IMG/VR virus record: IMGVR_UViG_3300009159_005318
Span: 1-27,238 of that record
Source of the DNA: a virus
DNA: 27,238 bases
Strand: one strand, 5' to 3'
Below the pieces are notes generated by a model. The model was given only the letters and a program-made list of their open reading frames with translations, had not been told where the DNA came from and did no database searches. Positions 2,896 through 18,913 of the stretch are shown here, one piece after another (position 1 is the first letter of the stretch; each line of letters opens with the position of its first letter). The position numbers and the translations under genes were made by a program.

Positions 2896-3305
2896 TGTTA
2901 GAATGTTTGATCTTGGGCGATAGCCTAGCAGTAGGAATAGGACAAGTTCGTAAAGAATGCGTTACCTACGCTAAATCAGGTATCAATAGTCATGACTATG
3001 TTAATCGGCATGTACTACGCACCGGCGGTAATAATCAAGCCAAAAGTATTATTATTAGTCTGGGGTCAAACGATCTCAAAAACATTAATACGTTTGAAGA
3101 ACTTGATACGCTTAGACAGCTGGTCAGCGCAGATCGAGTTTATTGGATTTTACCAAACATCAAAGAAACCAAGCGACGGGCGGTATGGGACGTGGCAAAC
3201 AAATACAAAGATTGGGTAATTGATGCCAGGGGATCTGAACGCAGTCCTGACACGGTACACCCTACCTACAAAGGTTATAAGGATATTTCGGAGAAAACAA
3301 AATGA
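2895..3305 (+). CDS. small SGNH/GDSL-type hydrolase
   Basis: This 136-residue protein has the SGNH-hydrolase blocks in order: GDS (residues 8-10, nucleophile Ser10), SLGSNDL with the block-III Asn (N59, D60), and DTVHP with the catalytic Asp/His pair (D119, H122). Block II Gly may be G29. Family members are esterases, lipases or carbohydrate O-acetylesterases. At about 136 residues it is shorter than usual (around 180-220), so it is a minimal version. It has no signal peptide, so it acts in the cytoplasm unless exported by lysis. It lies between ahpC and ahpD and is coupled to both by overlapping stop/start codons. A possible role is hydrolysis of oxidised lipids or an acyl ester, but nothing in the sequence fixes the substrate. 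Confidence 0.8.
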   Translation: MLECLILGDSLAVGIGQVRKECVTYAKSGINSHDYVNRHVLRTGGNNQAKSIIISLGSNDLKNINTFEELDTLRQLVSADRVYWILPNIKETKRRAVWDVANKYKDWVIDARGSERSPDTVHPTYKGYKDISEKTK

Positions 3306-3817
3306 CACAATGGGTAGATCAACTCAAAGAAGGACTTCCTGAGTATGCCAAGGATACCAAGTTAAACTTGGACGCTGTGATTAAACGCAGTACATTGGCG
3401 CCCGAGGAAGCAGAAGCAATTGCATTGGCAGCGGCTTTTGCAACAGGCAATGGCAAATTGATTACTTTTATTAGTAGCAGTATCACTGATATCAAAGAGC
3501 GTGACGCCGCACTCACCGCTGGCTCGATCATGGCACAAAACAACATCTGGTATCCTTATGTTGAAATGGCCGATGATCCTGCGCTAAAAGGATTGCCAGC
3601 ACAGTTACGCATGAACGCTATTGCTAGTCATGGTGGAACAACCAAAGCTCGTTTTGAAGCATACAGCCTGGCCGCTAGCATTGTGGGCAAGTGCCATTTC
3701 TGTGTCAAAGCTCATTATGAAACACTCAAACAAGAGGGTTACACAGTAGAACAACTTCGTGACATTGGGCGAATTGCTTCGGTAATGAACTCGGTTGCAA
3801 AAGTCCTAAACAGTTGA
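3302..3817 (+). CDS. ahpD: AhpD-like alkylhydroperoxidase / AhpC reductase
   Basis: A helical protein of the AhpD / carboxymuconolactone decarboxylase fold, 171 residues (mycobacterial AhpD is about 177). It carries the redox motif CHFC (C131, C134) with H138 four residues on, and E119 upstream (ARFEA); these match the Glu-Cys-x-x-Cys-His proton-relay set of AhpD. AhpD recycles AhpC using electrons from lipoylated host dehydrogenase subunits, so this phage pair would tap host lipoamide. The ATG has GGAG (3291-3294) seven bases upstream and overlaps the hydrolase stop (ATGA). The TGA stop lies inside the -35 hexamer of the next promoter. Confidence 0.9.
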   Translation: MTQWVDQLKEGLPEYAKDTKLNLDAVIKRSTLAPEEAEAIALAAAFATGNGKLITFISSSITDIKERDAALTAGSIMAQNNIWYPYVEMADDPALKGLPAQLRMNAIASHGGTTKARFEAYSLAASIVGKCHFCVKAHYETLKQEGYTVEQLRDIGRIASVMNSVAKVLNS

Positions 3818-3842
3818 CTCGGAGGACGAAACCTGTTATACT
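3814..3842 (+). promoter_or_regulatory. extended -10 promoter overlapping the ahpD stop
   Basis: TTGACT (3814-3819), 17 bp, then TATACT (3837-3842) preceded by TGT, giving an extended -10. The TGA stop of ahpD (3815-3817) is part of the -35. Predicted start is near 3849. The -10 lies in the loop between the arms of the 3823-3854 inverted repeat, so access could be regulated. Confidence 0.75.
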
Positions 3843-3854
3843 AAGTTTCGTCCT
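3823..3854. repeat. perfect 10-bp inverted repeat bracketing a -10 box
   Basis: AGGACGAAAC (3823-3832) and its exact reverse complement GTTTCGTCCT (3845-3854) flank 12 bases that contain the TATACT -10 element. One arm lies in the promoter spacer and the other at the predicted start site. No run of T follows, so it is a poor intrinsic terminator for ahpD. A repressor operator or a hairpin with dual use is more likely. Confidence 0.7.
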
Positions 3855-3868: not shown

Positions 3869-4168
3869 ATGAGCAACGATCTAGCCAAATTTATAAACTC
3901 AAAGCGCCGCCACAAAACAGATGTGGCCATATCAAGACAAGTCAAAATTGCCAAGGCACACGGTAGTACGTTGACTGTTAAGCAACCCCATCGACTTGCA
4001 AAACGTCATGCTATGGATTGTGGAAACCCACAATGTTACCTGTGTGGAAATCCACGTAAGACACACAAAGACAAACTTACAGCACAAGAAAAGCGATTGT
4101 TTCAAAACGTAGAAGTAATTCGCGACACACATTCAAATGGTTTAACAACAAAGGAAGATAATGAATAG
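3869..4168 (+). CDS. small basic CxxC protein (conserved phage type)
   Basis: A 99-residue, strongly basic protein. Its centre is RHAMDCGNPQCYLCGNPRKT (residues 46-65), with cysteines spaced C-x4-C-x2-C (C51, C56, C59) plus H47, a likely zinc-binding or redox knuckle. I recall similar H-x-x-D-C-G-x-x-x-C-x-x-C-x-N-P-R-K proteins as conserved hypotheticals in T4-like and alphaproteobacterial phages. The N-terminal 45 residues are Lys/Arg/His-rich and could bind nucleic acid. No ribosome site precedes the ATG. The gene is first in the operon behind the inverted-repeat promoter and overlaps the omega-like gene by eight bases, which makes a transcription-related role attractive but unproven. Confidence 0.8.
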   Translation: MSNDLAKFINSKRRHKTDVAISRQVKIAKAHGSTLTVKQPHRLAKRHAMDCGNPQCYLCGNPRKTHKDKLTAQEKRLFQNVEVIRDTHSNGLTTKEDNE

Positions 4169-4451
4169 CATACAAAATAAACAAGACGCACTTGCATACG
4201 AAGCGACCCTAGGACTTTCAAACGAGGCCGCAGTGGCCGCTGTAGGCAACCGTTATGATTTGGTGCTAATCGGTTCTCGGCGTGCTAGGGAATTAGGGCG
4301 TGGCGACCAGCCAAAAGTTGATGGTCCCAAGCATGGTGCAGTAATAACGGCTCTCAAAGAAATTGAGCTTGGACTTGTTGGTCGAGATTATTTGTACAAG
4401 AAGTTGGACATCGAACCAAGACGTCGTTACAAGGACCATGGCAGCTTCTGA
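4161..4451 (+). CDS. rpoZ: RNA polymerase omega subunit homologue
   Basis: The 96-residue product matches the omega (RpoZ) family along most of its length. It has the hallmark GNRYDLVLIGSRRARELGRG (residues 29-48, equivalent to NRF-x-LV-x-x-A-x-RARQ), then a short linker and VITALKEIELGLV (61-73, equivalent to T-x-x-AL-x-EI-x-x-G). In bacteria omega wraps the C-terminal tail of beta-prime, helps assemble core polymerase and affects sigma choice and ppGpp response. A phage copy could replace host omega and retune host polymerase. Residues 1-20 differ from the usual MARVTVQDC-type start. AAGGAAG lies upstream of the ATG, and the gene overlaps both neighbours. The symbol is by homology; function in a phage is inference. 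Confidence 0.85.
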   Translation: MNSIQNKQDALAYEATLGLSNEAAVAAVGNRYDLVLIGSRRARELGRGDQPKVDGPKHGAVITALKEIELGLVGRDYLYKKLDIEPRRRYKDHGSF

Positions 4452-4923
4452 TCAGCCAAACTCGGCCAAGGGTCGAGACAGTTTTGATGTTGAAACTGGC
4501 AACACCTTAGTACATTTTTTTAACCGTAACGTAACGCCTTACGCTACCAGCACCCAAGGTCCTAAATTTGATCTAGTCCCTGTTGAGAAACAAAAGGACT
4601 TGATGATCAATCATGCCAGGATGTATGCCCAGCAAGAGTATGATCGCATTATGGAACTAGTCACAGTATTAGAAAAACAAGCACAAGATATTCGGCGTAG
4701 ACTTGATGTTACTGATGCTGTATATGCCGCAGAATATAATTTTCAAATTGTCATGGGCAATTGCTACTGGTTGGTATGGCACAAACGACATGAAAAAAAT
4801 CTACTGGTACTCACCGGACCTGCAGATTGGAACACCGGGGTGCCAGATGACTACGAGTACATAATGCAAGTCAAGTACATGGGTGATCACACCTGGCAAG
4901 AAATAATAGTTTCTACTGATTGA
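4438..4923 (+). CDS. DUF2452-like protein, 161 aa
   Basis: Start set at 4438, where AAGGA (4431-4435) lies two to three bases upstream and the ATG falls inside the end of the omega gene. An N-terminal segment (about 15-45) reads TPYATSTQGPKFDLVP. A helical middle (about 46-95) follows, then a strand-rich end containing NFQIVMGNCYWLV, LLVLTGPADWN and GDHTWQEI. This order resembles DUF2452, whose members share TPYAT-x-x-GAP near the N-terminus and a Y-x-L ... FLSLI-P-x-EW ending; I make this link from memory. The molecular role is unknown. It is co-transcribed with the CxxC and omega-like genes, and its TGA stop lies in the next promoter's -35. Confidence 0.75.
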   Translation: MAASDQPNSAKGRDSFDVETGNTLVHFFNRNVTPYATSTQGPKFDLVPVEKQKDLMINHARMYAQQEYDRIMELVTVLEKQAQDIRRRLDVTDAVYAAEYNFQIVMGNCYWLVWHKRHEKNLLVLTGPADWNTGVPDDYEYIMQVKYMGDHTWQEIIVSTD

Positions 4924-4970: not shown

Positions 4971-5462
4971 ATGCCCTGGATTGAAAACATACCTTTAGAA
5001 AATGTAGCAACGGGCCGGCATCACGATTGCGGTGCCAACAGTATGCTGATCCAGATTTCAGACCATGACATGGCGTTTCCTACCCCCAGGCATGACTTTA
5101 AAGAAGTACACAAATTTACTTTCTTGGATGTTGAAGAGGATGGCATGACCAATACCGGTGGTGGTCGTTCCATCGACCTTAGTGAGTTTGCTATAACAGA
5201 TGAACAGGCCGCACAGCTGGTACGGTTGTTGCAACATGCACAAGAAAATCGTATGAATGTTGTTGTACATTGTCATGCTGGTATCTGTCGCAGTGGAGCA
5301 GTAGCAGAAGTTGGAGTCATGATGGGATTTGCAGACTGCGAGCGGTTTCGTATTCCTAACTTATTAGTCAAGCACAAAATGATGCGAGCACTGGGGTGGA
5401 CCTACGATGCAGACGAAAAGCCAGACGATGCGGCCTGGCGTAGAATGAACTTAGAGTCTTAA
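4971..5462 (+). CDS. dual-specificity/tyrosine-type phosphatase
   Basis: The product has the cysteine phosphatase P-loop HCHAGICRS (residues 100-108; nucleophile C101, R107), matching HC-x5-R[S/T] of protein tyrosine and dual-specificity phosphatases. A possible general-acid loop is DVEEDG around residues 53-58. At 163 residues it is the size of a minimal DSP. An in-frame ATG at 4959 exists, but the GGAG at 4961-4964 is correctly placed only for 4971. It leads the ADP-heptose operon. It could act on host phosphoproteins, on a phospho-sugar or on RNA 5' ends. The last is possible because DSP folds include RNA phosphatases. The substrate is not visible. Stop and next start overlap by one base (TAATG). 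Confidence 0.85.
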   Translation: MPWIENIPLENVATGRHHDCGANSMLIQISDHDMAFPTPRHDFKEVHKFTFLDVEEDGMTNTGGGRSIDLSEFAITDEQAAQLVRLLQHAQENRMNVVVHCHAGICRSGAVAEVGVMMGFADCERFRIPNLLVKHKMMRALGWTYDADEKPDDAAWRRMNLES

Positions 5463-5854
5463 TGAAACAAATCATAGTCAATGGCACATTTGATATCGTC
5501 CACTCTGGACATCTGGCATTGTTGAATTATGCTCGAAGTCTGGGCGATTATCTTATAGTTGCTATTGACTCTGATCAAAGAGTAAAAGAATTAAAAGGTG
5601 CCGATCGTCCTGTAAATACACAAGCGGAACGGCAAGAACTTTTGAGTAATTTACGCTCAGTGAATGAGGTTAGAATATTTGATTCTGATCAAGAACTTGT
5701 GAACATTATTGCAGAATGTGCTGTAATGGTCAAAGGATCAGACTATCGGGATCGTCCTATTGTGGGGTCAGAAGTTTGTCCAAGCATTGTATTTTTTGAA
5801 AGAATAGATGGTTTCTCAACAACTGAAAAAATTCAACATATTGCTAATAGGTGA
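5462..5854 (+). CDS. hldC: heptose-1-phosphate nucleotidyltransferase (HldE C-domain type)
   Basis: A 130-residue cytidylyltransferase-fold enzyme. It has GTFDIVHSGHL (residues 8-18) containing the H-x-G-H nucleotide motif (H14-H17), ELKGADRP (43-50), VKGSDY (90-95) and STTEKI (119-124), the counterpart of the ISTT signature. In bacteria this domain (RfaE2/HldC, or the C-terminal half of HldE) transfers AMP from ATP to D-glycero-beta-D-manno-heptose 1-phosphate, making ADP-heptose. Length agrees with the single domain. The kinase domain is encoded next to it as a separate gene in the order adenylyltransferase-kinase, the reverse of fused HldE. Glycerol-3-phosphate cytidylyltransferase is a possible alternative, but the kinase, HldD and phosphatase neighbours argue for heptose. 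Confidence 0.85.
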   Translation: MKQIIVNGTFDIVHSGHLALLNYARSLGDYLIVAIDSDQRVKELKGADRPVNTQAERQELLSNLRSVNEVRIFDSDQELVNIIAECAVMVKGSDYRDRPIVGSEVCPSIVFFERIDGFSTTEKIQHIANR

Positions 5855-6557
5855 CGCCTGCATAGATGTGTATCAGTATGGTACCATCGATCGCCTGAGT
5901 CCCGAAGCACCTGTGCCTGTGTTTGTTCCAACCTATCAAGAAGAACGTGATGGCATGGCTGGCAATGTGTTTAATAATTTAGAAACACTAGGGTGTGATG
6001 TAAACTATCTGTTTGGCAAAATATCCAAAAAGACCAGACTGATTGACCAACGTAGTCGTCAACAAATTGCTCGCATTGACAATGATGTACAGTCTGAGCC
6101 TATTAGATTTGAAACTGCAATTCCAACGTATGATGCCATTGTGATCAGTGACTATGCTAAAGGTACAGTAGATTACACTCTTATACACGACATCTTACAA
6201 GAAGTAACCTGTCCAGTGTTTGTTGACACCAAGTTGACTGAACTTGATCGCATGCAAGGTGCATGGGTAAAAGTAAATGAACTAGAATACAGCAAACTCA
6301 AAAGTGAGTGTGCAGGATTGATTGTTACTCGAGGTGCCAAAGGTGCAGATGTACTTCACCACAGCATTCATTGTTCAGCGCCAGCAGTTGAAGTTGTAGA
6401 TGTCACAGGCGCAGGAGATACATTCCTTGCTGCCTTAGTATATCAATATCTAGTAACGCAGGATATCAAATCAGCAGTTGAGTTTGCGACTCGTGCGGCA
6501 TCAATTACAGTACAGCATGTGGGTGTGTATGCACCAACACTAGAACAAATACAATGA
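5808..6557 (+). CDS. hldA: D-beta-D-heptose 7-phosphate kinase (HldE N-domain type)
   Basis: A PfkB/ribokinase-family kinase of 249 residues. It shows GTIDRLSPEAPVPVF (25-39), the segment typical of RfaE/HldE kinases, the Gly-rich GMAGN (49-53), and the catalytic DVTGAGDTF (198-206; base D204). It would phosphorylate D-glycero-D-manno-heptose 7-phosphate to the 1,7-bisphosphate. It is about 70 residues shorter than the usual kinase domain (around 320), with the central lid region reduced, so it is compact. The start at 5808 lies inside hldC (47-base overlap); no clear ribosome site was seen, so initiation may depend on coupling. It ends in an ATGA overlap with the cupin gene. Confidence 0.85.
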   Translation: MVSQQLKKFNILLIGDACIDVYQYGTIDRLSPEAPVPVFVPTYQEERDGMAGNVFNNLETLGCDVNYLFGKISKKTRLIDQRSRQQIARIDNDVQSEPIRFETAIPTYDAIVISDYAKGTVDYTLIHDILQEVTCPVFVDTKLTELDRMQGAWVKVNELEYSKLKSECAGLIVTRGAKGADVLHHSIHCSAPAVEVVDVTGAGDTFLAALVYQYLVTQDIKSAVEFATRAASITVQHVGVYAPTLEQIQ

Positions 6558-6913
6558 CAAGATTAACAGGACGAGTAGAGAAAGGGTGGGGTTCAGAAGA
6601 GATATGGGCAACCAACGACCGGTACTGCGGCAAACTAATGCACTTTATCACTGGTGCAAAGTTTAGCATGCACTTCCATGCAGAAAAAGATGAAACTTGG
6701 TATGTGCTTAGTGGACAGTTTAGTGTGTACTACATTGACACTAATGATGCAAGTGTGCATGTGGCAGAACTAAATCCCGGCGATACTTGGCACAATCGAC
6801 CACTGTTGCCGCATCAATTGGTTTGTGTGGAAGCAGGTACTGTCATCGAAGTCTCAACCCCAGACTCTGTCGAAGACAACTATCGAGTGTTACCAGGAGA
6901 CAGCCAAGCATGA
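6554..6913 (+). CDS. cupin (sugar-phosphate isomerase-like)
   Basis: A single-domain cupin of 119 residues. Metal-ligand positions are H40 and H42 in MHFHAEKDE, E47, and H87 in LLPHQ. The first motif lies after GWGSEEIWATND...CGKLM, an arrangement like the cupin part of type II mannose-6-phosphate isomerase / GDP-mannose pyrophosphorylase. Such stand-alone cupins occur within heptose and mannose nucleotide clusters. No SIS-domain GmhA (sedoheptulose-7-phosphate isomerase) is visible in the window, so this cupin might supply an isomerisation or epimerisation, but that is inference. It is coupled to both neighbours by ATGA overlaps. Confidence 0.8.
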   Translation: MTRLTGRVEKGWGSEEIWATNDRYCGKLMHFITGAKFSMHFHAEKDETWYVLSGQFSVYYIDTNDASVHVAELNPGDTWHNRPLLPHQLVCVEAGTVIEVSTPDSVEDNYRVLPGDSQA

Positions 6914-7224
6914 AATACATCGTTGATATTGATGATACAATAGTGTCAAACACACACAACGGGAATTATCATGAAGCTGTGCCTATGATGGACAGAATTG
7001 CACATTTTAATTTATTGTTTGAGCAAGGTCACGAGATACACTATTGGACTGCACGAGGCAGCCGGACTGGCAGAGATTGGTCTCAGTTGACCAAGCAACA
7101 ACTGGACCAATGGGGTGTAAAATACACCACTGTTGGCACAGGTAAACCGTCATACGACATCTGGATCGATGACAAAGCAATCAACGTGGAGACGTATTTT
7201 GAAAATCTTACTAACCGGGCATAA
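6910..7224 (+). CDS. HAD-superfamily phosphatase (capsule/heptose type)
   Basis: A small 104-residue HAD enzyme. Motif I is DIDDT (D6 nucleophile, D8 acid/base), motif II is WTARGS (T47), motif III is probably K79, and motif IV is DIWIDDKA (D87, D88). It has no cap domain and resembles the small HAD phosphatases of capsular polysaccharide and heptose loci. In the ADP-heptose pathway a HAD phosphatase (GmhB) removes the 7-phosphate from heptose 1,7-bisphosphate between the HldA and HldC steps. GmhB is larger (about 190 residues) with a zinc loop not seen here, so equivalence is likely by context but not by subfamily. Start at 6910 by ATGA overlap with the cupin. Confidence 0.8.
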   Translation: MKYIVDIDDTIVSNTHNGNYHEAVPMMDRIAHFNLLFEQGHEIHYWTARGSRTGRDWSQLTKQQLDQWGVKYTTVGTGKPSYDIWIDDKAINVETYFENLTNRA

Positions 7225-7963
7225 AGGCTTTATTGGTAGCAATCTGTTGCAATCTTTTGAAGCTGACGGACACGAGGTTGACACCTTTGAGTGGGACGAC
7301 GGCAACATGCCCAGCGTTATGGAACAAGACTGGGTGATACATATTGGTGGCATCAGTTCAACTACTGAACGTGACATAGACAAAATTCTAACACAAAACT
7401 TTGATTTCAGCAGACAGTTGTTTGACGCCTGCAAACGTTTTGGTGTTAACATGCAGTATTCTAGTTCGGCAAGCATATATGGCATGGGGCAAGTGTTTAC
7501 CGAAGATGCTCCACCGGATCCACGCACACCGTACGCCTGGAGCAAATACTTGTTTGAACGCTATCACACACAACACCAAGGTGGTAACGTGGTGCAAGGT
7601 TTTAGATATTTCAATGTGTATGGTCCCGGAGAAGATCACAAAGGTAGCCAGGCTAGTCCTTTTCATCAATTTGCAAAACAAGCAAAGGAAACTGGCAGGA
7701 TCAAGATTTTTGAAGGTAGCGAACACTCTCGACGAGACTTTGTGCCAGTACAAGATGTTGTGGCCATGCACTTGAGATTTCTTACCCGACCCACAAGTGG
7801 CATATACAATATAGGAACAGGACAAACTCAGAGTTTTCGAGAAATAGCTGAACAATTTAATGTACCCATTGACGAAATCCCCATGCCCGAAAACTTGAAA
7901 AATAATTATCAACGGTACACTTGTGCTGATATGACTCGAACACATCAGGCACTAAACGGTTGA
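7199..7963 (+). CDS. hldD: ADP-heptose 6-epimerase (HldD-like extended SDR)
   Basis: An extended short-chain dehydrogenase of 254 residues (bacterial HldD is about 310). It has the NAD(P)-binding TGHKGFIG (6-13), the catalytic S88-S90 and Y112-x3-K116 (YAWSK), and long HldD-specific stretches: GGISSTTERD (50-59), FRYFNVYGPGEDHKGS, FEGSEHSRRDFVPV and a QRYT-x-ADM end. HldD converts ADP-D-glycero- to ADP-L-glycero-D-manno-heptose. The start is a TTG at 7199: GGAG (7188-7191) is seven bases upstream and translation then begins MKILLTG, as expected; a longer frame from 7133 would read through the HAD gene. It is the last gene of the operon, and its TGA is embedded in the next -35. Confidence 0.9.
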   Translation: MKILLTGHKGFIGSNLLQSFEADGHEVDTFEWDDGNMPSVMEQDWVIHIGGISSTTERDIDKILTQNFDFSRQLFDACKRFGVNMQYSSSASIYGMGQVFTEDAPPDPRTPYAWSKYLFERYHTQHQGGNVVQGFRYFNVYGPGEDHKGSQASPFHQFAKQAKETGRIKIFEGSEHSRRDFVPVQDVVAMHLRFLTRPTSGIYNIGTGQTQSFREIAEQFNVPIDEIPMPENLKNNYQRYTCADMTRTHQALNG

Positions 7964-8708: not shown

Positions 8709-8942
8709 ATGAAATTAGATACTAACGAAATTTTGCAGTGGGCAGGTGCCGTGTTTATTGTAGCAGGGCACAGTCTCAACGCTGTTGGACCTGCGGCCTA
8801 TCCCTACAATATCCTTACATTTTTTGTGGGAACTATACTGTTTCTAGCATGGACCATCCGTGTTGCAAATAAACCACAGATGTTTGTGAATCTTGTGAGT
8901 GTAGCAATTGGGTTTTCTGGGCTAGTAAAAGCATTTGGTTGA
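8709..8942 (+). CDS. small three-helix membrane protein, 77 aa
   Basis: The product is almost wholly hydrophobic, with three probable membrane helices at about residues 9-29, 33-54 and 57-76, separated by short polar turns (AAYPYN, NKPQM). I do not recognise a named family; small PQ-loop or transporter-like membrane proteins of marine T4-like phages look similar. The start at 8709 is chosen because an upstream in-frame ATG (8685) lies inside the promoter. No Shine-Dalgarno is possible on the predicted leaderless transcript. It could act in the inner membrane on host physiology, lysis or superinfection exclusion. Its TGA stop is embedded in the following promoter. Confidence 0.8.
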   Translation: MKLDTNEILQWAGAVFIVAGHSLNAVGPAAYPYNILTFFVGTILFLAWTIRVANKPQMFVNLVSVAIGFSGLVKAFG

Positions 8943-8967
8943 CCAAATATTCCCAAAATGCTATAAT
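8939..8967 (+). promoter_or_regulatory. extended -10 promoter (8998 gene)
   Basis: TTGACC (8939-8944), 17 bp, TATAAT (8962-8967) with TGC. The stop of the membrane protein (8940-8942) is in the -35. The -10 lies in a 15-base inverted repeat (8959-8973). The spacer resembles those at 7960 and 8674. AAGGAG (8986-8991) precedes the ATG at 8998. Confidence 0.9.
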
Positions 8968-9504: not shown

Positions 9505-10587
9505 ATGTCAGAATCCCGCACCGTCACCGCGCTTCAAGCAAAAAAATCCCTGCTTAAAGCATTTAAAGTCAAACGTCCCTTGTTCTTGTGGGGTCCTCCC
9601 GGCATTGGCAAGAGTGAATTGGTAGAAGGCATTGCCAACGAACTTGGCGGTCTAATGATCGACCTGCGCCTGGGCCAGATGGAGCCCACGGACATTCGTG
9701 GTATCCCGTTCTACAACAAGGACATTGGCAAAATGGATTGGGCTCCACCTGTGGAACTGCCCGATGAAGAGATGGCCAAAGACTATCCTATTGTAATTTT
9801 GTTCTTGGACGAACTTAACAGTGCCGCACCTTCTGTCCAGAGTGCCGCTTATCAACTTATTTTGAATCGACGCATTGGCAAGTATAAATTACCCGACAAT
9901 GTTGTGATGGTTGCCGCAGGTAACCGTGAAAGCGACAAGGGTGTGACCTATCGCATGCCAACTCCGCTAGCAAATCGTTTCATCCACCAAGAGATGAAGG
10001 TAGACTTTGCTTCGTGGCAAGAGTGGGCAGTTAACAACCGTATCCACAAGGACGTGGTTGGTTACTTGAGTTTTGCCAAGCAGGACCTGTACGACTTTGA
10101 TGCAAAGAGTGCCAGCCGTGCCTTTGCTACACCACGCTCGTGGACTTTTGTGAGCCAGTTGTTGGACGAAGGCGATGACGACGACACTATAATGAACTTG
10201 ATTGCAGGTACTGTGGGTGAAGGTCTTGCTGTGAAGTTTATGGCCCATAAAAAGGTTGCCAGCCGCATGCCTAACCCTACAGACATCTTGAACGGCAAAG
10301 TCAAAGACTTGAATGTTAAAGAAGTGTCAGCCATGTACAGCCTGGTGATCTCCATGTGCTATGAGTTGAAGGGTGCAGTAGAGAACAAAGTGGAAGACAA
10401 AAAGTTCCACGAGATGGCCGATAACTTCCTGGGCTACATGATGAAGAACTTTGAGACCGAGTTGACTGTAATGGGTGCTCGTATTGCGTTGACCACATAC
10501 GACTTGCCATTCCTCCCGACCAAGTTGAAGAACTTTGACGAGTTTCACCAACGCTTTGGCAAGTACATCTTGCAGGCGTCGGCCTAA
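9505..10587 (+). CDS. MoxR-family AAA+ ATPase
   Basis: A 360-residue AAA+ protein of the MoxR type. Walker A is GPPGIGKS (30-37), Walker B is ILFLDELN (98-105), sensor 1 is AAGN (137-140), and an arginine finger is probably R158 (LANRF). DLRLGQMEPTDIRGIP (53-68) is the MoxR/CbbQ-like pore and substrate loop region. MoxR ATPases work as chaperones with von Willebrand A domain proteins, inserting cofactors or remodelling complexes. The expected VWA partner is encoded at 11316. CobS, a related ATPase, is frequent in T4-like cyanophages, but this protein has the MoxR rather than the CobS look. AAAGG (9492-9496) precedes the ATG. Confidence 0.93.
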   Translation: MSESRTVTALQAKKSLLKAFKVKRPLFLWGPPGIGKSELVEGIANELGGLMIDLRLGQMEPTDIRGIPFYNKDIGKMDWAPPVELPDEEMAKDYPIVILFLDELNSAAPSVQSAAYQLILNRRIGKYKLPDNVVMVAAGNRESDKGVTYRMPTPLANRFIHQEMKVDFASWQEWAVNNRIHKDVVGYLSFAKQDLYDFDAKSASRAFATPRSWTFVSQLLDEGDDDDTIMNLIAGTVGEGLAVKFMAHKKVASRMPNPTDILNGKVKDLNVKEVSAMYSLVISMCYELKGAVENKVEDKKFHEMADNFLGYMMKNFETELTVMGARIALTTYDLPFLPTKLKNFDEFHQRFGKYILQASA

Positions 10588-11315: not shown

Positions 11316-12578
11316 GTGACTACCGCTACTACTACTAACAAAAAAGAGTCCGATAAGTTCAAAGATCTTATTGGACCCATGGACACCAAACTTGACAAAG
11401 TTGTGCGTGAAATGTTGATCACTGCCCGTGTGGGTCTGTTGTTGAAGGCCTCATTCTTTGGCAACCTTGCTACTCGTTTGAAACTGGTAAACGGAGATGA
11501 GTGGTGTGCCACTGCCGCAACAGACGGCAGAAACTTCTACTACAATAGTCGCTTTATCAAAATGCTCAAGCCCAAAGAGATTGAATTCTTGTTTGGACAC
11601 GAGGTCCTACATTGTGTTTATGATCACTTTGGGCGTAGGGGCGATCGCGATCCACAGTTGTTTAATATTGCCAACGACTTTGCAGTAAACGGCGACTTGG
11701 TCAAGCACAAGGTAGGTGAGATGATTACATCTGTGCCTTGCTTGTTTGATCGCAAGTATGAAGGCATGAGCTCCGAAGAGATCTATGATGCTTTGTACGA
11801 AAAAGCAGAAAAGATCAATATCAGTGACTTGTTGGACAAGATGATTGATGAGCACATGGATGGTGACAGCGACGGTGATGGCGACAAAGAAGGCAAAGGT
11901 CGTCCCAAGCTCACTCCCGAAGAGCGTCAGCAAATTAAAGATGAGATAAAAGAAGCCATGTTGGCAGCGGCCGCCACTGTAGACGGTGCAGGCAATATTC
12001 CAGCAGGTGTCAAGCGTCTTATACAAGACATGACTGAGCCCAAGATGAACTGGCGAGAACTGTTGCGTATGCAATTAGAAAGCACTATCAAGAGTGACTA
12101 CACCTGGATGCGAGCCAGTCGTAAAGGTTGGCACATGGATGCGGTCATGCCCGGCATGAAACTGGACCCAATGATTGATATTGCTATTGCACTGGATGCG
12201 TCGGGCAGTATCAGCGAAAAGATGTTGAAAGACTTCTTGGGAGAAGTTCAAGGCATCATGGATTCGTTCCCAGCGTATCGTATCCATGTTGTGACTTTTG
12301 ATACCGACTGCTACAATCCTGCACAATACGATAGTGACAATTTGGATGACATCTGTGACTACGAAGTGTCAGGCGGTGGCGGTACTGATTTTGATTGTAT
12401 CTTTACATATTTGAAAGAGAACGAAATTGAGCCCAAGCGTCTGGTTGTGTTTACAGACGGATACCCATTCGGTTCATGGGGTGATGAGAACTATGCGGAT
12501 ACTGTTTGGATCTTGCATGGTACCACAACTATTGAGCCACCTTGGGGTCAACACGCCTACTACGACGAGGCTGAGTGA
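11316..12578 (+). CDS. VWA-domain / putative metallopeptidase partner of MoxR
   Basis: A 420-residue protein starting with GTG. Residues about 25-180 resemble the putative metallopeptidase region found in DUF2201-type proteins, with zinc motif HEVLH (95-99) and a following NDFAVN (120-125). An acidic linker (DGDSDGDGD, about 182-190) and a charged helix follow. Residues about 285-400 are a von Willebrand A domain with an intact MIDAS: DASGS (294-298), T357 in GGGGTDF, and D381 in FTDG. Such proteins are encoded next to MoxR ATPases and receive their remodelling activity. Here the ATPase lies 0.7 kb upstream under a near-identical leader. Whether the metallopeptidase part is active is not known. 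Confidence 0.9.
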   Translation: MTTATTTNKKESDKFKDLIGPMDTKLDKVVREMLITARVGLLLKASFFGNLATRLKLVNGDEWCATAATDGRNFYYNSRFIKMLKPKEIEFLFGHEVLHCVYDHFGRRGDRDPQLFNIANDFAVNGDLVKHKVGEMITSVPCLFDRKYEGMSSEEIYDALYEKAEKINISDLLDKMIDEHMDGDSDGDGDKEGKGRPKLTPEERQQIKDEIKEAMLAAAATVDGAGNIPAGVKRLIQDMTEPKMNWRELLRMQLESTIKSDYTWMRASRKGWHMDAVMPGMKLDPMIDIAIALDASGSISEKMLKDFLGEVQGIMDSFPAYRIHVVTFDTDCYNPAQYDSDNLDDICDYEVSGGGGTDFDCIFTYLKENEIEPKRLVVFTDGYPFGSWGDENYADTVWILHGTTTIEPPWGQHAYYDEAE

Positions 12579-16906: not shown

Positions 16907-17871
16907 AATTTTTAGTAACCGGTGGTATGGGCCTGATTGGGCACAACGTAGTACAACGTCTAGAAGACCGAGAACACGAAGTTGTGATTGTGGACATCAT
17001 GACCAACTATGGCATTATTCCGCAAGACGAACTAGAGTACTTGTTGGATGAGCGGCGTAAGAAGATTCGAACACAAGACATATATCGTACTGATATTTCA
17101 GATGCATGGGCGTTTGATCGTGTAGTAGAAGAACACAAACCCAATGTGATCATACACATGGCCAGCTTTCCTCGGCAGAAAGTTGTTAATGCCAATCCTG
17201 CCTGGGGTGCCAGAGTCATGATGGAGGGTTTGATCAACGTTTGCGAGAGTGCCAAAAAGCACGGTGTAGAGCGTGTGGTGTACATATCTAGTAGCATGGT
17301 CTACGGAGACTTTGCGGATCAAGTGCTAGAGGATGCTGACTGCCGTCCGATTGGGCAATATGGAATTATGAAATTATGTGGAGAAGATCTTGTTAAAGAC
17401 TATCATCGTCGTGGTTGCTTTGACTACGCTGTTATTCGCCCTAGTGCTGTATACGGGCCCTTGGACGTGGAAGACCGAGTGGTTGCAAAATTCATGCTCA
17501 CCGCCATGCGAGGAGGCGTTCTACGTGTTAATGGGGCAGGGGAGACGTTAGACTTTACCTATGTAGACGATGCTGCGGATGGTATTGTGGCCGCTGCCAC
17601 ACGTATCATGAGTGCTAACAAAACATTCAACATTACCAAATCACACAGTGTTAGTTTATTAGAAGCCGCCGAAATGATTGTGAAGATTGTGGGCCGGGGC
17701 ACAATTGAATGTCGAGATAAAGATGCAGACTTTCCAAGTCGTGGCGCATTAAATATTGATCGTGCAAAGACCATACTTGGATATGATCCCCAGGTAGACG
17801 TTGAACAAGGATTTGAAAATTACTACAACTGGCTTAACAATTCCGTTTACTGGTCTAAAAAAGCAGTATAA
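16903..17871 (+). CDS. NAD-dependent sugar-nucleotide epimerase/dehydratase
   Basis: An extended SDR of 322 residues, the usual family length. The cofactor loop is TGGMGLIG (6-13), the catalytic set is S129-S131 with Y153-x3-K157 (YGIMK), and IRPSAVYGP (about 180-188) and DFTYVDDAADG are the expected substrate-domain segments. The closest general class is the UDP-glucose 4-epimerase/dTDP-glucose dehydratase group; I cannot choose substrate or reaction. It lacks the TxxxE dehydratase signature as far as I can see, favouring epimerase. The next gene, a DegT aminotransferase, overlaps it by about 70 bases, so a keto-sugar made here may be aminated next. Confidence 0.9.
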   Translation: MKFLVTGGMGLIGHNVVQRLEDREHEVVIVDIMTNYGIIPQDELEYLLDERRKKIRTQDIYRTDISDAWAFDRVVEEHKPNVIIHMASFPRQKVVNANPAWGARVMMEGLINVCESAKKHGVERVVYISSSMVYGDFADQVLEDADCRPIGQYGIMKLCGEDLVKDYHRRGCFDYAVIRPSAVYGPLDVEDRVVAKFMLTAMRGGVLRVNGAGETLDFTYVDDAADGIVAAATRIMSANKTFNITKSHSVSLLEAAEMIVKIVGRGTIECRDKDADFPSRGALNIDRAKTILGYDPQVDVEQGFENYYNWLNNSVYWSKKAV

Positions 17872-18913
17872 TAATCTCCGTACAGAAATCCTGGACACAA
17901 CAGATGAAGTGTTGCGTTCAGGTAATCTCATGGGTGGCAACTATACTGCTGAGTTTGAAAACTGGTTGGCCAAACGAAATCACGTGAGTTATGCTGTGAC
18001 TTGTCATTCAGGTACACAAGCACTTGAAATATTAGCCGGATATTATCGCGACAACGATCTTTCTTACATAAATCCTCCCACAGTACTAGTACCAGCATTG
18101 ACTTATCCAGCCACTGCTAATGCTTTCCTACGAGCAGGATGGAAAGTTATAATTGGTGAGACCGACTACTATGGTCAGTTAGATACACGAAAGATACTCA
18201 ATGATATGGACACACACTTTCATGCTGTGTGTGCTGTGGGCTTGTATGGTGCGGCCTTGCATGATATGATACCGGTGCAGAATCGTGCCTTGGTGATTGA
18301 AGATGCGGCCCAGCACTGGTTGAGCAACAATAGTCAAAGATCTGGTGCGGCTGCTGTTAGTTTTGATCCTACCAAGAACTTGGCAAACTATGGCAATGGT
18401 GGTGCTGTGATATCTGATGATAGAAATCTCTTGGACTATGCAAGAGACTGGGTAAACAATGGCAAGCACACACGACATGCCGAAACTGGCACAAACTCCA
18501 GGATGAGTGAAATAGACTGTGCCCAAATGATGATCAAAACCAGATATATTGATTCATGGCAAAAACGACGTGGCGAGATTGCGGCACACTGGATCGAACA
18601 ACTAAAGAAGCGCAATGTACGTTCGTTAATTGACGACAGCAACTTCTCAACTCATTGCTATCACAAGTTTGTGATTGAAGTGGATGCCAGAGATATTGTG
18701 CAACGTAACCTTGCCATATGCAAAATTGAAACCAAAATTCACTATGCTGAACCCCTACATGAATTACCTGCTTATCAGCACCTGGACAATCCCGGCGGGT
18801 TACTAAGTCCAGCATCATCACTAAGCAGACGTTGCCTAAGTTTGCCTATCTACCCTGAACTCACAGACCTTGAAGTAGAATACGTTATTGATCAGTTGTT
18901 AGAAATTGTATGA
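17801..18913 (+). CDS. DegT/DnrJ/EryC1 PLP-dependent sugar aminotransferase
   Basis: A fold-type I aminotransferase of about 370 residues. It has VTCHSGTQAL (66-75), the PLP-phosphate-binding region, IEDAAQHW (166-173, Asp168 on the pyridine nitrogen), and SFDPTKNLANYGNGG (187-201) with Schiff-base lysine K192. Family members transfer an amino group to nucleotide-linked keto-sugars. The conserved fold begins at IPFTGLKKQY (14-23), so the true start is uncertain: TTG 17801 is used, but no ribosome site supports it, and an ATT at 17819 with AAGGA upstream is another option. All choices overlap the epimerase gene, implying coupling. Confidence 0.88.
   Translation: MNKDLKITTTGLTIPFTGLKKQYNNLRTEILDTTDEVLRSGNLMGGNYTAEFENWLAKRNHVSYAVTCHSGTQALEILAGYYRDNDLSYINPPTVLVPALTYPATANAFLRAGWKVIIGETDYYGQLDTRKILNDMDTHFHAVCAVGLYGAALHDMIPVQNRALVIEDAAQHWLSNNSQRSGAAAVSFDPTKNLANYGNGGAVISDDRNLLDYARDWVNNGKHTRHAETGTNSRMSEIDCAQMMIKTRYIDSWQKRRGEIAAHWIEQLKKRNVRSLIDDSNFSTHCYHKFVIEVDARDIVQRNLAICKIETKIHYAEPLHELPAYQHLDNPGGLLSPASSLSRRCLSLPIYPELTDLEVEYVIDQLLEIV

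Follow-up and report, generated by a model that had tools for sequence, protein, structure and literature searches.

Phages bind, modify, inhibit or bypass the RNA polymerase of their host, and the T4 proteins AsiA and RpbA, P7 of Xp10 and Gp2 of T7 are small phage proteins that modify it. Giant viruses carrying Rpb6 encode a complete polymerase. In the bacterial enzyme, residues 2-5 of the omega subunit (RpoZ) together with R417 and K615 of beta' hold the phosphates of ppGpp at site 1, and when residues 2-5 of omega are missing, the Kd of the polymerase for ppGpp exceeds 100 uM (PMC7676912). The MAR motif predicts ppGpp site 1 across bacteria (PMC6912228). This site governs elongation and backtracking, not the starvation response, is reportedly dispensable for the stringent response, and contacts ppGpp partly through the main chain (PMC10191844). 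Deletion of omega is tolerated in E. coli (PMC7676912).

Our analysis identified a viral omega homologue in the window, by which we mean the whole stretch of 27,238 bases of IMG/VR virus record IMGVR_UViG_3300009159_005318, a fragment. The features of the locus are the following.

3814-3842, plus strand: sigma70-type promoter, TTGACT-17-TATACT, with TG before the -10 box
3823-3854, no strand assigned: 10-bp inverted repeat around the -10 box, arms 3823-3832 and 3845-3854
3869-4168, plus strand: small basic CxxC protein (phrog_4499, function unknown), with invariant C51, C56 and C59 and GNPR
4161-4451, plus strand: omega (RpoZ) homologue of 96 aa, on profile, fold and alignment evidence
Residues 1-16 of omega: extra N-terminal helix (AlphaFold prediction)
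Residues ~18-73 of omega: omega core
Residues ~74-96 of omega: GRDYL motif and basic tail
4441-4923, plus strand: DUF2452 protein (PF10504; 32.6 bits, cut-off 25), third gene of the operon

A sequence-only reading had claimed that 4161-4451 encodes a 96-aa RpoZ-like protein and had quoted its motifs; this held, with exact coordinates. It had named beforehand two outcomes that would refute a phage omega, namely the lack of an RpoZ profile match and a fold unlike omega. Neither came true, and the identity was supported by both profile and fold searches. The ATG at 4161 is preceded by AAAGGAAG, and no alternative ATG occurs upstream of it in the same open frame. The product matched Pfam PF01192 (RNA_pol_Rpb6) with 41 bits (cut-off 26, E=1.9e-10) and NCBIfam TIGR00690 (rpoZ) with 34.4 bits (cut-off 23.6); it scored under the cut-offs of two narrower NCBIfam omega equivalogs. 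PF01192 was matched by 23 of 23 family members. In PDB searches the single window sequence retrieved E. coli omega (E ~7e-8 to 1e-7), and a profile of the viral family retrieved V. cholerae omega as the best match (6e-18) and E. coli omega at ~1e-16. The beta'-binding core motifs GNR[FY]DLVL, RRAR and ALREIE are all present in the alignment.

An AlphaFold model built on an alignment of 23 viral sequences reached a pLDDT of 87-94 (~90) in the core over residues 21-50; the extra N-terminal helix (residues 2-16) was predicted with modest confidence only (pLDDT ~76). All of the top 50 Foldseek rows and the 50 VIA rows for this model were bacterial RNA polymerase omega chains, with a TM by target of 0.67-0.71 in the best Foldseek rows and a best VIA Z of 8.5, to V. 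cholerae omega. For helical proteins such a Z (near 8) is only moderate, yet every listed row was omega. In the structural alignment, residue 17 of the window omega falls on E. coli omega residue 2. Pairwise dN/dS against eight relatives was 0.11-0.13. Thus, the protein is maintained and under purifying selection, and the product of 4161-4451 is a true omega homologue by sequence and predicted fold.

The wide spread of such genes in uncultured large phages and the remodelling of both protein ends were absent from the sequence-only reading. Successive IMG/VR searches gave 21, 186 and 307 relatives, that is at least 300, on contigs of up to 364 kb. That the gene is phage-encoded, as had been claimed, held as well: the window is a virus record, and relatives with the same gene order lie on contigs with a T4-type capsid gene. 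The T4-type major capsid gene gp23 was found on 19 distinct omega contigs, among them L038 (178 kb), which combines gp23 with the order CxxC-omega-DUF2452 and an omega 79% identical to that of the window. The window itself encodes a MoxR ATPase and a VWA protein (PHROGs 1297 and 1314), a pair known from large phages. By capsid protein the nearest isolates are Sinorhizobium phage Phosso (72%) and the PA5oct/MIJ3/Paride group (69%); by VWA protein they are Arenbergviridae and relatives (43-48%). Occurrence of omega is patchy, as it was detectable in only 2 of 14 partial contigs picked by capsid alone.

A search of 84,980 bacterial and archaeal genomes, which was pattern-based and may miss relatives, returned only alphaproteobacterial omegas at 33-40% identity. 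When four viral omegas were compared by tblastn with 50,697 phage records, mainly omegas of E. coli/Salmonella, Acinetobacter and Enterococcus were hit. No isolate phage with a viral omega was found among these records, the inspected matches being bacterial by sequence or context; this verdict does not extend to other short or unannotated matches. The omega profile gave no match in the six large isolates PA5oct, Phosso, 2.275.O, 121Q, RaK2 and GAP32. This search had no positive control of its own; the same profile matched two known positives separately.

Several database records deserve mention apart from the viral clade. Three entries filed as phage contain omegas of bacterial type: CAKLQH020000003 (a bacterial omega in the order gmk-rpoZ-spoT), MG065691 (E. 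coli-type) and OR846588 (Firmicutes-type). A far more divergent phage omega of 73 aa, P0002, is encoded on the minus strand of contig L313 at 1504-1725 (PF01192, 29.5 bits, cut-off 26) and has relatives of 31-66% identity in further IMG/VR contigs. Hence, phage omegas are more diverse than the main clade.

The viral omegas are a single clade, separate from the omegas of Pseudomonadota. In a tree of 86 viral and 47 bacterial rows they occupied one side of a branch with a support of 100/99, and without the N-terminal columns they still formed one group (87% SH-aLRT). The alignment comprised only 72 columns. Since the bacterial rows are almost all from Pseudomonadota, the tree leaves the donor lineage undecided. 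In the full tree, the subclade of the window held together with all of its 55 members (99/91). A single loss of MAR was considered and could not be shown, as the tree without N-terminal columns requires 5-6 changes.

Both ends of the protein differ from those of bacterial omegas. All 43 Pseudomonadota omegas start with MAR, compared with 25 of 88 distinct viral omegas; including close forms the viral number rises to 28 of 88 (~30%). The viral omegas of MAR type have exactly 13 residues before the core, the same as E. coli omega, and those without MAR mostly have 18-31 (three have 14, and one is cut by a contig end). Viral omegas that kept MAR (MARISSELAA..., MARITSE...) were found outside the subclade of the window, on L089, L158, L160-L162, L165, L168 and others. 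The window omega lacks MAR: after an extension of 16 residues, L17-G18-L19-S20 take the structurally aligned positions, with a glycine at that of R3. For its subclade, an N-terminal extension instead of MAR is thus described, the helical nature of which is a model prediction. At the other end, a GRDYL-type motif (G[RK]xYL) occurs in 68 of 88 viral but in none of 43 bacterial omegas. Median tail length is 27 residues in viral versus 80 in bacterial omegas, and median net charge of the tail +2 (neutral to basic) versus -22 (mostly acidic). Because alphaproteobacteria, whose tails are very acidic, are heavily represented in the bacterial sample, the magnitude of the charge contrast calls for caution. 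Viral omegas keep the beta'-binding core, and a short tail bearing GRDYL replaces the long bacterial one.

A three-gene operon with a basic CxxC protein, and a promoter bracketed by an inverted repeat, had also been claimed for this locus. Both claims held: the genes at 3869-4168, 4161-4451 and 4441-4923 overlap end to start, by 8 nt between the 3'-end of the CxxC gene and the start of omega, and the 10-bp repeat surrounds the -10 box. A CxxC reading frame lies directly upstream of omega at 70 of 81 loci, although these contigs are not independent. The third gene varies, being DUF2452 in the group of the window and a 428-aa or a phosphatase-like protein elsewhere. The AlphaFold model of the CxxC protein was poor (pLDDT 56) and the search for a solved relative gave none; hence, no function is proposed for it.

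In 12 hand-picked promoters, three of them imperfect, complementarity of the arms was 8.2 out of 9 within a promoter versus 4.9 with arms swapped among relatives, and 0 of 10,000 shuffles scored as high. Such covarying arms indicate that the palindrome itself is under selection. More distant relatives have the promoter alone, so that the palindrome is not universal. A role as intrinsic terminator was rejected, as there was no terminator match in the region. A DNA operator is more likely because the predicted transcription start falls in the right arm; we infer that the palindrome probably serves as operator for a dimeric regulator. A shorter palindrome of the same kind (8 bp, sigma70-type promoter, -10 box as loop) was observed at 8939-8967 of the window.

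Further genes of the window were noted in passing. A VWA-type protein (PHROG 1314) is encoded near an AAA/MoxR ATPase (11316-12578 and 9505-10587). PHROG 1314 and many phage records name it 'HNH endonuclease', but the actual match is to a DUF2201 metallopeptidase-VWA protein (133.7 bits), and the name is likely a misannotation that has spread across phages. A peroxiredoxin (AhpC/TSA) and a carboxymuconolactone decarboxylase-family protein, possibly AhpD-like, are encoded two genes apart (2344-2895 and 3302-3817) and may be a phage peroxide defence pair. Sugar-nucleotide genes (cytidylyltransferase, PfkB kinase, cupin, epimerase, DegT aminotransferase) at 5462-7963 and 17801-18913 possibly point to phage remodelling of a host surface sugar or of an own glycan.

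No polymerase or sigma factor of the omega phages was found with the families searched. The beta' family PF00623 had no match in any of 29 omega contigs, the largest of 364 kb, and was detected in 14 of 14 control genomes; these records may fall short of full genomes, and the search could have overlooked a split or very divergent beta'. PF04545 was not found in 16 omega contigs, a search which gp55-like late sigma factors would escape. Because the omega contigs lack a beta' match, we infer, with the same reservation about incomplete records, that the host polymerase is the only available partner. The sigma70-type promoter of the operon also points to the host enzyme. MazG was considered as a sign of ppGpp handling and rejected as a consistent partner (over cut-off in 4 of 16 contigs, below cut-off in 2 more).

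We propose that the phage omega binds host beta' via the conserved omega core and would displace or supplement the host subunit by exchange. The host polymerase would thereby gain a phage-specific surface, the short neutral-to-basic GRDYL tail, which is common to the viral family and may dock other phage factors. In the subclade of the window, the helical extension would replace the ppGpp-coordinating residues, by which site 1 would be abolished or blocked and elongation on phage genes no longer slowed by the alarmone. Binding of ppGpp at site 1 is not expected, as inferred from the replacement of omega residues 2-5 by the helix. The proposal as a whole, that is binding to host beta', displacement or supplementation of host omega and loss of site 1 in the subclade, is an inference without binding or ppGpp data, and we favor it by a modest margin. 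A bolder joint reading, in which T4-type phages swap the host omega, the helix fills or destroys site 1, phage elongation escapes the alarmone and the phage-specific tail recruits phage factors, seems rather more doubtful, and taken together we would not yet count on it.

Several points limit the proposal. As MAR or a near variant is retained in about 30% of viral omegas, losing site 1 cannot be what the family as a whole is for. A changed N-terminal sequence alone is no proof of such a loss, since the contacts are partly main-chain. A selective gain is not obvious given that E. coli tolerates the loss of omega. Against the proposal also stand the lack of any experiment or complex model, the modest confidence of the helix, and the patchy occurrence of omega.

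Other explanations have to be weighed against this exchange of subunits. The phage omega might merely be an ordinary replacement or extra dose, a beta' chaperone that aids assembly or stability of the host polymerase during a long infection and leaves regulation unaltered. The beta'-binding core is indeed the most conserved part (NRYDLVL, RRxREL, EIE), and the MAR-type viral omegas share the exact pre-core length of 13 residues with E. coli. However, both ends are remodelled in a clade-specific, conserved manner, and the fixed N-terminal extension would be left unexplained, so that we consider this explanation unlikely. Still less credit is given to a poison or decoy omega that binds beta' or the partners of host omega and inhibits host transcription. 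Many phage proteins inhibit host polymerase, and a small gene behind a strong sigma70-type promoter would fit; but phages without an own polymerase core depend on that of the host, and strong purifying selection preserves the entire omega core.

That the omega gene stems from contaminating bacterial DNA, or is a host gene that recently strayed onto a phage contig, can be regarded as refuted and is all but excluded. It gains some support from the inspected omega-positive records of phage collections, which were bacterial (CAKLQH020000003, MG065691). In contrast, hundreds of viral relatives form one clade (100/99) apart from bacterial omegas, the closest bacterial omegas returned from the 84,980 genomes were only 33-40% identical, and gp23 lies on the same contigs as omega. 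Furthermore, among the genes examined no gmk or spoT neighbours were seen, their place being taken by CxxC, DUF2452 or other phage genes. The exchange of host omega for a remodelled viral one remains our preferred reading.

The claim that a phage omega is unusual held, with no PHROGs family for it, no isolate phage and no open paper found. The viral clade was not reported in the open-access full texts searched (subscription papers and preprints were outside the scope), and the word omega is absent from the main text of a huge-phage survey (PMC7162821). Hence, omega is a known family, and its viral clade appears undescribed, though automatic annotation has already met two entries. Viral omegas that naturally have or lack the ppGpp site would provide a ready-made series on the role of site 1 in infection. 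Paride, whose replication in dormant hosts requires ppGpp signalling (PMC10761892), is among the nearest isolate relatives, but its close relative PA5oct has no detectable omega.

Among known systems, bacterial RpoZ (PF01192, TIGR00690) shares with the viral omega the core sequence, the predicted fold, and the order and spacing of the beta'-binding motifs. It differs in its adjacency to gmk and spoT, the lack of a GRDYL motif, and a MAR start in place of the extension seen in the subclade of the window. The UniProt entries A0A6J5T227 and A0A6J7WH19, 'DNA-directed RNA polymerase [uncultured Caudovirales phage]', have the same fold as the window omega, to which the former is 53% identical over the aligned part; both carry automatic database names from uncultured phages, and no study of either was found. 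Arenbergviridae and relatives (PA5oct, MIJ3, Paride; Phosso) are the nearest isolates, with PA5oct and Phosso lacking a profile-detectable omega. AsiA, RpbA, P7 and Gp2 share the target predicted for the phage omega, the host polymerase, but are not homologues of a core subunit. A phage beta' is defining for multisubunit phage polymerases of the phiKZ/AR9 kind, in contrast to the omega contigs without a PF00623 match. Rpb6 of giant eukaryotic viruses (for instance Marseillevirus LCMAC103) is a virus-encoded member of the omega/Rpb6 superfamily and gave a weak fold match; unlike these viruses, the omega phages have no beta' that was found. This comparison suggests, by inference, that the omega phages exchange a single part of the transcription machinery of the host instead of supplying a complete one. 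If this is true, replacement of a core subunit by a viral homologue, with the rest of the enzyme absent, would be a different phage strategy.
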